From: Fimbriimonadaceae bacterium | GTDB lineage: Bacteria > Armatimonadota > Fimbriimonadia > Fimbriimonadales > Fimbriimonadaceae | Reading direction: 5' to 3' | Length of the DNA stretch: 64,000 nt | Assembly: GCA_019187105.1 (NCBI GenBank) | Contig: JABAQM010000001.1 | Coordinates: forward strand, 1,240,001-1,304,000 | Shown: positions 3,001 to 41,889 of the stretch, in pieces | How positions within the stretch are numbered: position 1 is the first letter of the stretch | Layout of the letters: each line of letters opens with the position of its first letter | The notes under the pieces: model-generated | What the model was told of the DNA's origin: nothing | Database searches by the model: none | What the model saw: only the letters and a program-made list of their open reading frames with translations | Translations under genes and position numbers: made by a program

Positions 3001-6000
3001 GGGTAAAGCGTGCCATCGAGCGGTTTGGTAACCGCCGCGACTCCACCTTGCCAGGCCAGGTCGTTGATGGCAAACCTCACGTTGGAGATGCCGCGGTTCT
3101 CGCCAAGCAGGAGCACGAGCAGGCTTCGATCGTAAACAAGAACCTGGCTTGCGCTACTTTGACCGTGCGAGACTTCGTCACCTGGAGAGTTAAGGTCCGG
3201 CCCGAGGCCGCTGGTCAGGATCACCGTGTTCCCGTTAACCAGGTTGCCGTTGGCCTGCACTTCCGGATCGGTGAGAACGGTTGTCTTGCCAAGCGTCTGG
3301 ACGGTGGCCTTGTTCGTTCGAACTTCCACACCCAGTGGGTGAAGGAACCGAACGGCGTCCCGCTGGATTTCGGTCGAGGTCGAGCCACGATCCGGAATGA
3401 CCGCCCGGGTGATGACGGTGCCGTCTCCAGGCGCCGCCGCGTTGCCACCCGCTCCGTAGACCGGGAAGACTGCAAACGAGAACATCTCCTTGTCGGTGGG
3501 CTTGCTGCCCGGAATGAGGAACGGATCTACGGTTCGCCTTGCAGCGGCAGTGCCGGGAGCGTTGAACTGCGTGTCGATGCGATAGCCGTTTGCCGGCGGG
3601 GTGAATTTGGACCGATCCGGCAGATCGTAGGTCATCACATAGAGCGTTTCGCCGTATTCGAACGAACGTCGCGTACAGGCTCTGGATTCGCCGGCTGCTT
3701 GGATGTCGGTGTAGTTGAGCGTGCCCGCCGACAGCTTCTCCATGATCTTGTTGTATTCCTCGGGGACTACAAACGCGACCTTGGCGTTTTGAGCGATCTG
3801 GTCGAGAACGCCCTTGCTGGGATCGTTGGGAGAAATGTTCTCTATGAGCGGCGGTACACCCGGCGACAGCAGGAAGCGAATATCGCTGAAGGCGAATAGG
3901 TTGCCGGCGACGTCGCCCGCATAGAACCACACGTGAGCCGTCGTACTGTCGGGGTCCACAAGCGAGTCAGGCGCAGTGAGGCCACCGCCAATTGCCAGGG
4001 AACTGAGGAAGGCGCCGCCTTCGGACGTAACGCCACCGCTGTAACGGAACCCGTCCTTGTTGAGCTCGCTCATGTGGGCGAAGAACCGCTCGATGCGCCC
4101 GTCCAGGGTCGGGACCATCAGAATCGGTACGCCTCTGCCATCCGGCATAACGCCGGCACTATTCGGAACCCTAAGATTCGTAAAGGCAGGCGAACCGCCG
4201 GGAGTGCCGCCCAGCTCGGTCGATGTCCAGGTCGACGTACCCGTAGCGGCGTCGATAGCGTACATATTCCCCGCTCCGTTGACGGCAAAGACCGTGTCGG
4301 TCATACCCGTTCGGGGGGCAATATTGAGCTCGGAGGCTGAAACGGCGACGGTGGCGGCCGTGGTGTACCCGTTGACCGAAGGCACCGCCCCTCCGTCGAA
4401 GCTCCACACGAGAGCGCCGATCGACCAGTCCACGGCGTAGACGAAGCTACGCGAATCTCCGAACTTCAGGTCGGCGCCAAAGTAGACCTTGTTGAAGCGG
4501 ACCGTCGGCGTCATGCGGACCGCTCCGATGGTGGGATCGGTGAACAGCGGGTAGGCCCAGCGAACCGTCGTCGTTCGGGTGGTGGGATCTCCTACCGCAT
4601 TGAGAGCAATCACGCGTCCTTGGGTCGTCGGCACGTAGACCGTTGGCCTTGCCGGAACATTGCCAAAGGAAACCGAGCCTACGATCGGTCCCAGATTGCT
4701 GTCGACCGGAATCGCCGGATAGTCGTCGGGATAGCTCCACGCGCGGCTGGTGGTTCCGTCGCCTCGACCAAGCATTTCGATGCAATAGACTCGGCCGTTC
4801 TTCGTGCCGATGTAGAGTCGATCGACGTTGCCGGTGGGGGTTGGGTCGATCTGAACCCGAGCGATTAGGCCCGAGGACATATCGAAGCCGATCGGGTTCT
4901 CCGCGATTCCGTCAGGGCCATCCGCCCCGGCTGCGCGGTTGGGATCCTGGTTGATCGGTGCGAGCTGCTTTTCGCTTGGATAGACCCAGTAGACCGTCGT
5001 GCGTCCAGCGGCGTCGCCCTTGGCGTCCATGCAGTAGATGCGACCATTTTCCATCGCCACGACGACCACGTCGCGCTCGGCGGTTACGCCGTTGCTGTCC
5101 TTGACCTTTGCGCGAGCATAGATCGGCGTCGACGTGATCCGCAGGTCAGCCTGCTTTCGGAACCGGACCATGTCGGCGTAGACCTGCTTGCCGTTCGAAC
5201 CGGGACTCAGGTTCGTCACCACGACCCGAAGGGGGGCGGTGGCATTGTTGTTGGCGAAGCGCGTTTTCAGCGTCGTAAGCAATCGCACCCAGCCGCCATT
5301 CTTGCTCTGGTCAAGGGTCACGACGTAAGGCGTTGCGCCTTCGTAAATCTCGTACTGGACGTCGGTGGCGAGATTGCCTCGATCCACCGCGTTCGGCGGG
5401 AGCCATACCCAGACTTCATAATCGCCGTCGTTCAGCTTTGGCGCGTAGGTGAGCGTGGCGTTGGTGACACCTGAAGCGTTGGTGATCAGGTAGTCGAGCC
5501 CCTTGAAACCGCCAAAGATGTTGTTGCTGGTCCAAGCGCCGCTCTGGCTGATGCCGGAGCTCAGGTTGTCCTTGTCGATCGTAACCATGCTCCGGTTCTG
5601 GCCGGGCTGGTCACTCGGATCAGGAGTCGGAATGATGTTCGGATTCACCACCCAGTCACGACGCTCCTCGTTGAACGTCGCCACATCGGGATCCCTCAGC
5701 GGGCGTTTTGCCGGCCACGACCACACACCATTTCGAAATGCGATCGCGTTCGGATTCACCGTGGCGTAATCATGCGAATACGAGGAGACAATGCCGAGGT
5801 CGTAAGTGAAGATGGTGTTGCCGACTTGCACCGTGAACGGCTCGTTGCGTGCGGCAACGGTTCGCCACGGATACGTGTCGGGGACCGATAGGATGTGGAC
5901 GATCGGTGAGGCCAGGTAGCTGCCCAGTGAAGAAAACGCCGCCCGCGAAACAACCGCCGCGTCGGCATAAACGAGGGTCGTGCCTGGCACGTCTTCAAGT

Positions 6001-38377: not shown

Positions 38378-39865
38378 CTAAGGCGGGGTCACCTTCCAGG
38401 CCACGTAATCCACCTTCGCCTTGAAGCCGGGCTGCGACTGGGGGCTGTTGGGTTTGACGCGCAGGCGGGCCTTCACGCGGCCGTCGTATCGCACGTAGAA
38501 GTGCCCGAGCGGGAAGCTAAGGGAGACGAGCTGGTCTTGGTCCTTCTTGGCGGCGCGGGTGTCGACTTGGACCCAGTTGTTCAGGTCCCAATCCCAGAGG
38601 TCGATGCTCTGCTGAAGTCCGACCTTGTTGACTTGAAGCTCGATCTCGAAGTCGAGCTTGCCGTAGGTTCGGGCTTGGGTAGCGGAGAATTCGACGGTGA
38701 TCGGGGCGGAGCTGAAGGTGGGGGTGACGCCGCTGGTGAACTCTTCGCGGTCGTCGTCGGGCTTGAACGTGCCCCGCCGGTCGCCGGCGGTGATGCTGCC
38801 GAAGATGGGCTTGACATAGTTCGGGCGGGCCGAATACGGCGACAGGGCGGTGCGGGGGATGCGACACATCCAGCCCTCGTTGGTGAAGGTGGGGCTTCCT
38901 CCGCCGTTGCCGCAGATGGTCGTGCCATCGGCAGAAACGTCGGTGGCTTCGTTGAGGAAGAAGTTCCCCGTGCTCACGCCAAGCGAAGTGAGAACGTCCT
39001 TGATTCGCCGGGTTCCGGTTTCTGCGGTCCAGATCACGGCTGCCGTCCCTCCGCCCAACTCACGACAGGTTCCGACGAGAACCTCGCCGTCTGCACTAAC
39101 CGCCAAAGCATTGTTCCCGGTACTCCCCTGGTAAAGGCCGGGGAGTTCGACAATGCCGAGTTCCTCGTGCCAGATTTGGAACTGCGAATTGTTGGAGAAG
39201 GTCGCAATGGCACCATCTGCGGAGACGTCAGAAAACTGCTCGAAACTGCCGCCGAGTTCATTAACAATGACTAACGGTAAGTCTTCGCACCAAAGGGCTC
39301 CATCGTTATTAAAGCCCCCATCGGCACTGTGCCGACCTGCTACGTAACTTGCATCACAATTAGTTGCCACAGGTTTATTGCTTAAAGGTGTTACCTTGCC
39401 TTCAAACATAAACCGATATCGGCCACCAACAGCATAAAGTGCGACTGTACTAGCATCCGGTGTTAGGTGGACGACATCCATGATCTGGCCAAGCTCACCT
39501 CCGGGAAACTTACTAGTGCCGCTGCCTTCTCGCCAAATCATTCCCTCGTGACCACTTTCACCAACAATGGTCCGACCATCGAAAGATATACCCCTTCCAC
39601 TCCCACCCTGGTCTTCAAAGTAAATATAGCCAAGCGACTCAATTCCAGTAACAGAGCTAAATCTTATTGGCACAAAAGGCCCACCCAAGCGAGAATAACC
39701 GGTTAGAAACTGGCCCCCATCCGAAACACGAATTGCGTACGACGTGCGATTGGGTTCATCGAGAAATCCAATTCGATGGAACCACGTGTCCTCTAGAGGA
39801 GAAAGAGAATGGCTGCAGGCAAGTAAAGAGGTCAGTACGGTAAACAATTCAAGCGCTTTTAACAT
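38378..39865 (-). CDS. Probable lipoprotein with HAF-type extracellular repeats
   Basis: The product is 495 aa from the ATG at 39865 (AGGTGA 8-9 nt upstream); a GTG at 39877 would add four residues. The N-terminus looks like a lipoprotein signal (TVLTSLLACSHS, lipobox LLAC). The middle has repeated segments of the HAF type, e.g. GRGISFDGRTIVGESGHEGM and ALAVSADGEVLVGTCRELGG with ATDVSADGTTICGN, expected to form a beta-propeller. The C-terminal 150 residues (PIFGSITAGDRRGTF onward) form a separate beta-rich domain. The N-terminal half is noticeably AT-richer than neighbouring genes. Function unknown, cell-surface. Confidence 0.75.
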   Translation of the reverse strand: MLKALELFTVLTSLLACSHSLSPLEDTWFHRIGFLDEPNRTSYAIRVSDGGQFLTGYSRLGGPFVPIRFSSVTGIESLGYIYFEDQGGSGRGISFDGRTIVGESGHEGMIWREGSGTSKFPGGELGQIMDVVHLTPDASTVALYAVGGRYRFMFEGKVTPLSNKPVATNCDASYVAGRHSADGGFNNDGALWCEDLPLVIVNELGGSFEQFSDVSADGAIATFSNNSQFQIWHEELGIVELPGLYQGSTGNNALAVSADGEVLVGTCRELGGGTAAVIWTAETGTRRIKDVLTSLGVSTGNFFLNEATDVSADGTTICGNGGGSPTFTNEGWMCRIPRTALSPYSARPNYVKPIFGSITAGDRRGTFKPDDDREEFTSGVTPTFSSAPITVEFSATQARTYGKLDFEIELQVNKVGLQQSIDLWDWDLNNWVQVDTRAAKKDQDQLVSLSFPLGHFYVRYDGRVKARLRVKPNSPQSQPGFKAKVDYVAWKVTPP

Positions 39866-39877
39866 GACATGTTTCAC

Positions 39878-40371
39878 CTAAGGATTAACTTGATTATCGG
39901 AGTTAGCATCGATGCTAACAATTGAAAGGGGTGTTATGAGGTAAAAGTCAGGCGACGGCTCGTCAGTGATAAAAGTACTGTTTGTCAATGATAGTCCACC
40001 ATTACTACCTCCATCAAAATGGATAGCTGCTTCTGCGCCATCGTTGCTCTCAAAAGTGCAGCCATGAAAGTTAAGTTGAATTCGTGGACTTACTTGGAAC
40101 TCGAGACCACAAAGTTTCCGCCTGTAGTGCGACTCTGGCTCAAGGTACATCCGTAGAAGCGTTGGCCCGTTGCCCGTCGGTACGGATCTCCGCCATGAGC
40201 ATCTTCACAGGCAATGGTTACCGCATTGTTATTCGTCGTATCCGTGGGATTGGCGAACGTACAATCGGTATAGGTACAGTCGTAGGGATAGTACATCGGA
40301 TACCCAGCTATCGTCTGTGACAACATTTCGCGATGGGTGGTCGAGGGGCTGCCTTCTGGTCGGTTTGGCAT
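39878..40371 (-). pseudogene. Frameshifted right-handed beta-helix-like gene remnant
   Basis: Two overlapping minus-strand frames look like halves of one protein. The upstream frame starts at an ATG at 40371 with a strong AGGGAGAGG ribosome site (MPNRPEGSPSTTHREM) and ends near 40090 after FYGCTLSQSRTTGG. The other frame runs 40150-39878 and continues with QLNFHGCTFESNDGAEAAIHF and LSLTNSTF. The shared F-x-GCT-x rung pattern is typical of right-handed beta-helix proteins. A single indel near 40085-40110 would join them into about 160 residues, much shorter than a normal beta-helix protein. The DNA is AT-rich, consistent with recent acquisition or decay. A sequencing or assembly error is the alternative. 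Confidence 0.5.
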
Positions 40372-40857
40372 ATCCTCTCCCTTCACCTTCCGAGTTCTGG
40401 GTTCGCAAAGCTCACCCAAAGTGCCAAACGCGCTCCTTCATCTTACAACAGCCCCTTCGGCATTCCAAGAGGCCCGGCTAGCCTCGTAGTGATGGAAGCA
40501 ACCCCCAGGTGCCGCAGCCGTATCGGCCTCTGCTCCCTCCGTCGAGTGGATGACTCATGCCACGGAATGGTTGCCTTACTCCGTGGAGTGCATGACCCAT
40601 TCCACGGAATGGATGCCTTACTCCGTGGAGTGGATGACTCATTCCACGGAATGGATGCCTTACTCCGTGGAGTGGATGACTCATTCCACGGAATGGATGC
40701 CCTACTCCGTGGAGTGGATGACTCATTCCAGGGCGTGGCCGCTCCGCCCCCTGGCGTAGCTCACTGCCTTCGTTCGACGACAGTACCCACGCAGAACCGC
40801 AACGTGGCATGGCGTCGCGGACCGGACCCTTGATTCTCCTTACGCTTTCGCTACCGG
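40372..40857. other. Intergenic region with minisatellite
   Basis: No convincing gene is seen in this 486-nt stretch between the beta-helix remnant and pdhB. It holds a 21-bp tandem repeat array (listed separately) flanked by unremarkable sequence. Frames are open on both strands only because the repeat unit is a multiple of three. No terminator with a T-run is visible after the pdhB stop at 40858. Confidence 0.6.
40529..40738. repeat. 21-bp tandem repeat (minisatellite) of alternating palindromic half-units
   Basis: Ten tandem 21-bp units alternate between two related forms, giving a 42-bp higher-order period; the first unit (40529-40549) is degenerate and the last (40718-40738) decays. One form contains the near-palindrome CATTCCACGGAATG, the other ACTCCGTGGAGT, and CCACGGA of one can pair with TCCGTGG of the next. 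One plus-strand frame reads alternating heptapeptides MTHSTEW and MPYSVEW. Without a ribosome site, I treat it as non-coding. Confidence 0.9.
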
Positions 40858-41889
40858 TCAGCCGATCTTTTGAACGGCGGCGATGACGTCGCTCTCGTTC
40901 GGGATGCACTGTAGTTCGAGCACCCGCGAATACGGCATCGGCACGTTCAAGCCGCCAACACGGCCGACCGGTGCGTCGAGGTCGTCGAAGCAGTCTTCGC
41001 CGATGCGAGCGGCGATCTCCGCCCCGAACGATCCGCTGCGCCAGTCTTCGTAGACCACGATGGCGCGGTGGGTCTTGCGAACGGACTTGTAAATCGTCTC
41101 GGTGTCCAGCGGCAGCAGCGACCGAACATCGATAACCTCGGCGTCGATTCCATCCTCGACCAGCTTTTCGGCGGCGGCTAGGGAGACATTGACCATCCTG
41201 CTGTAGGCGATCAGCGTGAGATCCTTGCCCTCTCGAGCGATGCGGGCCTTTCCGATCGGAACCGTAAAGTCGATCTCCTCGGAGACTTCTCCCTTGGTGC
41301 CGTACAGGCCGGGGTTCTCGGTGAAGACCACTGGGTTGTCGTCCCGAATCGCCGATTTCAGCATGCCGTAGGCATCCTCGGGCGTTACCGGAGCGACGAC
41401 TTTTAGCCCGGGACAGTGGGCGTACCAGCCTTCCATCGAGTGGCTGTGCTGGGCGCTGAGCTGGTTTGCGGCGCCGCCGGGCCCGCGAACGACGAGCGGA
41501 CACTTGGCCTTGCCACCGGTCATGTAGTGAATCTTCGCCGCGTGGTTGATGATCTGGTCGAGGGCAAGGATCGAGAAGGACATCGTCATCATCTCGACGA
41601 TCGGTCGCAAGCCGGCCATCGCCGCACCAATCGCAATGCCGGTGAATCCGGGTTCGGTGATCGGGGTGTCGACGACGCGCCGCCCGATGCCGTCCTTGAG
41701 TTCAGGATGCGGGGGCGCCTTGAGCCAGTCGCCGGGATCGGCGCAGTACTTCTCGAACAGGCCATCGGTAACGCGGAAGGTGCCTTTGTATTTTCCAATG
41801 TCCTCGCCCATCAGAAAGACTTCCGGGTCGCGGTCCATTTCCTCGACGATCGCCCGTTTGATCGCCTCGCGGTAGGTCATGGTGGCCAT
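40858..41889 (-). CDS. pdhB: Pyruvate dehydrogenase E1 component, beta subunit
   Basis: The product is 343 aa. With E1 alpha it forms the thiamine-diphosphate-dependent decarboxylase of the pyruvate (or branched-chain 2-oxoacid) dehydrogenase complex. Family motifs are MTYREAIKRAIVEEM, FLMGEDIG, DTPITEPGFTGIAIGAAMAG, RGPGGA, AQHSHSMEGWYAHCPGLKVV and DVRSLLPLDTETI. An insertion near residues 50-68 (DPGDWLKAPPHPELKDGI) lengthens the loop before the active site. It overlaps the pdhA stop by one base (TAATG). No E2 or E3 gene is next to it. Confidence 0.93.
   Translation of the reverse strand: MATMTYREAIKRAIVEEMDRDPEVFLMGEDIGKYKGTFRVTDGLFEKYCADPGDWLKAPPHPELKDGIGRRVVDTPITEPGFTGIAIGAAMAGLRPIVEMMTMSFSILALDQIINHAAKIHYMTGGKAKCPLVVRGPGGAANQLSAQHSHSMEGWYAHCPGLKVVAPVTPEDAYGMLKSAIRDDNPVVFTENPGLYGTKGEVSEEIDFTVPIGKARIAREGKDLTLIAYSRMVNVSLAAAEKLVEDGIDAEVIDVRSLLPLDTETIYKSVRKTHRAIVVYEDWRSGSFGAEIAARIGEDCFDDLDAPVGRVGGLNVPMPYSRVLELQCIPNESDVIAAVQKIG

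Follow-up and report, generated by a model that had tools for sequence, protein, structure and literature searches.

Minisatellites in bacteria are commonly regarded as accidents that have nothing to do with one another. The iterons of plasmids are direct repeats, each spanning roughly two turns of the helix, located near the gene that they serve, the repeat units of type III toxin-antitoxin systems are longer than 21 bp, and the STRR sequences of cyanobacteria are heptamer-based bacterial short repeats. REP elements measure 20-40 bp and have an end tag and a high copy number, and those with a GTAG/CGTC tag are short, palindromic, mostly extragenic and sometimes clustered, the Planctomycetes being among the phyla concerned (PMC3733652). 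The locus described here is a tandem array of 21-bp units in a stretch of 64,000 nucleotides from a Fimbriimonadaceae bacterium (the window, meaning the whole stretch analysed). It is a real, probably non-coding stretch of symmetric units, and it has the appearance of a single stray representative of a type of DNA element that recurs.

Combining TRF and a reading of the register, the array extends over positions 40529-40759 and contains 11 units, degenerate ends included, with a super-period of 42 bp and no strand assigned. The register reading gives ten 21-mers at 40529-40738 and edges that degenerate to about 40759; TRF delimits 40537-40730 with a period of 42, 4.6 copies, 94% matches, no indels and a score of 346, and reports a period of 21 as well. 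This confirms the alternating ten-unit minisatellite with a 42-bp super-period that the initial annotation had described. On the plus strand, the A core is present in four units, three of them with the exact sequence CATTCCACGGAATG (40598-40611, 40640-40653 and 40682-40695) and one, at 40556-40569, beginning with CATGCC and having one mismatch (CATGCCACGGAATG). The B core ACTCCGTGGAGT is found on the same strand in four units (40578-40589, 40620-40631, 40662-40673 and 40704-40715), and both end units are degenerate. The extra degenerate unit at 40739-40759 retains the CCAGGG/CCCTGG relation with its neighbour. In each core, inverted arms flank two central bases (AC or GT) that do not pair, in agreement with the near-palindromic units claimed earlier. 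The mutual complementarity of A and B holds for the central eight bases (TCCACGGA/TCCGTGGA) and does not extend to the outer arms, which differ. Scans for promoter-like and terminator-like signals around the array gave none above shuffles.

To place the array among other genomes, a pattern taken from the window's units only was searched in a collection of 84,980 species, each represented by one genome. Two sibling uncultured genomes matched, for a chance expectation below 0.1 (a hand estimate with uniform base composition), and since all 291 genomes of the window's phylum that were searched were others, we infer that these two lie outside the phylum. Both matches fall within arrays of 21-bp units, with GGATGAC mostly constant and the remainder variable, and the consensus of one of them given by the repeat finder, GGATGACTTACTCCGTGGAGT, matches the B unit of the window in all but one of its 21 bases. 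Of the 397 genomes of that other bacterial class, 7 contained a looser pattern (reversed control, 0); this pattern derives partly from the window, which makes the motif likeness of those loci partly circular. The related arrays have the unit consensus CTCC-NN-GGAG-YGGAYGANCCR, with the flanking CC/GG conserved at 94-99% and the central two bases free, a conservation inflated by the choice of units by their core and by array limits set by core or motif score.

A test motif was built from 112 units, none of them from the window or its phylum. Three near copies (L056, L131 and L132) were excluded from the training, L243 was removed from the array set as it had two units only, and L146, in genome G492, was first left out as coding-like, L241 of that genome being added later. 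The window array (chain 40537-40767) scored 178 with this motif, and no other place exceeded 13 in the 64 kb or 14 in 400 kb of its genome; since some training loci had been picked with a window-derived pattern, the score indicates likeness to a selected class. None of 1000 column permutations keeping period and composition reached the nine-unit score of 145.7, the maximum being 35.7. By these values the array carries the motif of a CTCC-NN-GGAG / GGAYGA subfamily together with a strict 21-bp period (42 and 21, no indels). Because other genomes have arrays of this motif and period, a chance origin of the array was rejected. The initial annotation had foreseen a chance local expansion if other copies were absent; its proposed genome-wide search does find a single locus in the 3.3-Mb source genome, yet the recurrence elsewhere overrides that conclusion, and the supposedly unexplained one-off becomes a member, by motif and period, of a recurring array class.

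The loose GGATGAC pattern occurs in 32 of the 291 genomes of the phylum, many of these occurrences being plain coding or other intergenic repeats, and in 15 stretches of viral contigs that by eye are mostly coding or other repeats (L058 resembles a coding region); the strict patterns gave no match in viral contigs. In a genome of the same family as the window (G023:C2), a 21-bp array of about ten units (L134:1091-1344) follows a reading frame of 368 aa, and its units combine GGATGAC/GGATGCC with CTCCTT at a different internal spacing. The clustered repeats of G232 (L121-L123), in which TTCAGGATGAC every 21 bp is mixed with GTCATGCCGGACTTGATCCGGCATCC palindromes, resemble widespread intergenic repeats. 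In G012, a heptamer repeat lies directly 3' of a conserved gene (L041:2475-2526) and a 61-bp tandem repeat at 3473-3691.

The reading frames beside several arrays encode the same unnamed protein, for which we coined the name DYIP-fn3. It has about 205-225 aa, with an N-terminal domain opening on an M-x-D-Y-I-P-like sequence and a C-terminal fibronectin-III-like domain, and 22 diverse members align across about 220 residues. In the C-terminal half, the best match to a fibronectin-III domain of known structure has E 2.3e-5, the N-terminal half gave no convincing match, and no family of Pfam, NCBIfam or PADLOC fits more than one member. Relatives are present in 46 of the 291 genomes of the phylum; none was found in viral contigs, plasmids or phages, and literature searches returned no description of the array class or of the family.

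The association between arrays and this family was counted from both sides. Among the 28 motif-found loci, 12 have a family gene or remnant within 466 bp, always with the array on the 5' side of the gene (12/12, five of these matches being partial genes), and 16 have no family match; L234, with a gene start that appears broken by eye, is a possible thirteenth and is absent from the systematic count. Arrays adjoin remnants at three places in G463 and at one each in G546 and G054. The count starting from the protein is free of the selection bias of the window pattern. A periodicity of 21, 42 or 63 bp (identity of 60% or more across 84 bp) was detected in the 700 bp upstream of 41 of 66 family loci and downstream of 0 of 64 (Fisher p 1e-16), and any of 55 other lags attained that strength in 1 of 66 upstream flanks. 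Array searches had supplied six of these loci, and by protein alone the count is 36 of 60. At the 0.60 threshold 25 of the 66 loci have no array, among them all three family members of the window's own genome, each a weak match. From the 30 loci L251-L280, nine were excluded from this test, namely L258, L262, L268 and L273-L276 (short, clipped or without an N-terminal match) and the duplicates L279 and L280; L284 was removed as a duplicate of L260. The window-type motif lies upstream of three of the eight strong members, against 1 of 52 for the others (p 0.006). The upstream arrays have a median of 10 units and lie 3-371 bp from the gene (median 115 bp).

In the window, the sole gene start seen near the array is a minus-strand ATG at 40371, preceded by the Shine-Dalgarno-like AGGGAGAGG and separated from the array by 157-158 bp (40372-40528). 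The ORF that it opens, 3' of the array at 39878-40371, is frameshifted, with a break after about 90 codons and a continuation in another frame (pieces 40090-40371 and 39878-40150). The decayed gene reported next to the array is indeed there, as two overlapping same-strand pieces within 39878-40419. Neither piece at 39878-40371 has a family match, including to the ToxN/CptN/TenpN type. On the other side, a conserved minus-strand gene of 343 aa (40858-41889), which we take to be a dehydrogenase E1 beta subunit, points its 3' end towards the array. Adjoining the broken ORF, a minus-strand reading frame of 499 aa (38378-39877) has no NCBIfam or Pfam match. The class feature that the window array lacks is a family gene or remnant 3' of it: no DYIP-fn3 gene or remnant was found near the array, and the gene start beside it belongs to a broken, unrelated ORF without family match, so we call it an orphan.

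Near-identical arrays were sought by blastn and found neither in 100 relatives nor in phage records, and the strict unit pattern had no match in the 290 other genomes of the phylum. Periodicity 3' of the flanking conserved gene was absent in all 18 relatives checked (L034 being too short). Being absent in the relatives checked and unique in its genome, the array therefore either was gained locally or has disappeared elsewhere. The search in Rfam gave two chance-level microRNA matches only. A survey of periods in 464 kb of the same genome (the window and 20 other stretches, at least 62% identity over 84 bp) passed the cut-off at 21, 42 and 63, and at one place each at 27 and 54. Its four period-21 places are one in a long reading frame, which we assume to be PNPase, the window array, and two other, non-coding ones without family match. 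Two intergenic 21-bp arrays with unrelated units lie in this genome at about 11300-11500 of L326 (GCCTGATCCAGAGCAGATGAG) and about 15450-15760 of L337 (ATTCGCGGACCTCGCCAGGTC).

Unit sequences are private to each locus, and what the loci have in common is the period and the 5' position. Co-evolution between unit and protein beyond near relatives was not detected, the correlation being reached by 205 of 500 permutations. Over 36 arrays, the window included, there is an excess of dyads (Stouffer z 7.4), singly significant in 8 of them. The window array itself folds better than all 200 shuffles, with z -5.84 for the minus strand as RNA and z -3.97 for the plus strand as single-stranded DNA. The foldability noticed earlier is thus confirmed; the hairpin as functional unit is not supported, in view of the stem mismatches and of the core dyad. 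Where there is a consensus stem (13 arrays), the gene-sense strand has 60 G.T and 63 A.C stem mismatches, so no strand is favoured. Covariation of the core-centred dyad is absent in related arrays (z 0.17 with the window, -0.48 without), and for linker-centred pairs the excess is weak (z 2.2 with the window, 2.8 without). Relative to the gene, the linker is oriented the same way in 4 arrays and the opposite way in 8, and this variable orientation, together with the lack of strand preference, is easier to reconcile with DNA than with RNA. The arrays evolve more rapidly than the sequence around them: L130 and L132 have near-identical flanks and an array with many substitutions. In one genome, one locus has exactly one unit more than another, sister species retain the same array loci, and many arrays with a unit identity of 66-73% have no indels. 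In G463, at least 11 contigs (L232-L236 and L245-L250) carry dispersed homologous arrays, some beside truncated DYIP-fn3 genes, and these look like a duplicating, decaying repeat family.

On sequence grounds, we tentatively favour, at somewhat less than an even chance, a phased, dyad-symmetric DNA element that would act in cis on the adjoining gene, belonging to a class often located 5' of DYIP-fn3 genes, with the window copy as an orphan. Each 21-bp unit, equivalent to two helical turns, would be a candidate dyad-symmetric DNA site, the fixed spacing could align all candidate sites on the same side of the helix, and whole units may be gained or lost. Given the dyad excess, the absence of strand preference, the variable orientation, the absent or weak covariation and the change by whole units, spacing and half-sites may well matter more than hairpins. 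Several points go against the phased element: the 25 of 66 family loci without array and the 16 of 28 arrays without family, the lack of a remnant near the window array, dyads singly significant in only 8 of 36 arrays, and unit sequences that do not correlate with protein similarity beyond near relatives. A wider proposal, doubtful when all its parts are taken jointly, is a novel two-part locus in which a locus-private, hypervariable 21-bp dyad array and a DYIP-fn3 gene would go together in at least two bacterial groups. Conservation would be limited to the two-turn spacing and the 5' position because the array would serve as a phased platform or as a nucleic-acid partner specific to its own gene, and the window array would be stranded.

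The main rival is a passive minisatellite, whose units would spread by slippage or recombination, with palindromes formed via template switching, and would be tolerated 5' of these genes. Locus-private units and the fast turnover between L130 and L132 agree with this, as do arrays away from the family such as the two non-coding places in the 464 kb; because of these two places, a wider 21-bp habit of these genomes beyond DYIP-fn3 is possible and counts in its favour. The upstream bias of 41/66 against 0/64, the passing of the cut-off only at 21, 42, 63 and 27/54, and the many diverged arrays without indels argue the other way, and we hold a passive origin to be slightly less likely than the phased element. 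That the units instead encode heptapeptides is highly improbable. The frame MTHSTEW/MPYSVEW reads as the initial annotation claimed, 21 is divisible by three, and 113 of 216 frames are open in the 36 upstream arrays for 88 expected. However, two of these arrays have no open frame at all, the frame equivalent to that of the window is stopped in 8 of 16 others, and the 68-aa reading of the window has no Pfam match. The statement that all frames stay open was also incorrect, as four of six are open across the array and, in one frame of each strand, stops recur at every unit or every second unit.

Two further explanations involve RNA or mobility. Transcribed repeats, acting as a leader or as a protein partner in the manner of type III toxin-antitoxin RNA, would suit tandem repeats 5' of a short gene, the folding of the window array and the weak linker-centred excess. 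The nearly equal G.T and A.C mismatches, the variable orientation of units to the gene and the absence of any PADLOC match for 22 family members make such an element improbable. A recombination or mobility site, with array and gene as a duplicating cassette and the array as its end or exchange site, is suggested by G463, with its motif arrays (at least 11), several truncated family genes and homology beyond the array. Against it, no terminal repeats or dedicated transposase were seen and sister species retain the same loci; five Y1 transposase matches (PF01797) exceed the cut-off in the window's genome (G000:C1:2074779, 623651, 713257, 3302456 and 3304253), none near the array, and we give this explanation little likelihood. 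The phased element acting in cis remains our preferred reading.

Compared with the described systems, the array is not a CRISPR, its units being head-to-tail without unique spacers. It is similar to STRR in that 21 is three times seven; the units here have dyads and often lie 5' of one gene family. Like iterons it consists of direct repeats of about two turns, whereas the array of the window lies on the chromosome, the unit differs from locus to locus, and no replication initiator (Rep) match was found for DYIP-fn3 members or the window ORF. With type III toxin-antitoxin systems (ToxIN/CptIN) the class has in common tandem repeats 5' of a short gene; in contrast, the period here is 21, there is no sense-strand preference, and the protein is unrelated by PADLOC and Pfam, with no ToxN/CptN/TenpN-type match in 22 members. 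REP elements are likewise short palindromic extragenic repeats; the window array differs by its single locus and strict 21-bp tandem period, and no terminal GTAG/CGTC tag is present at its repeated units on either strand. Finally, a fixed period and one position relative to a single gene family recur here, with units that differ in sequence between loci. If true, this would provide a testable cis-element for an uncharacterised family and a case in which spacing, not sequence, is kept.
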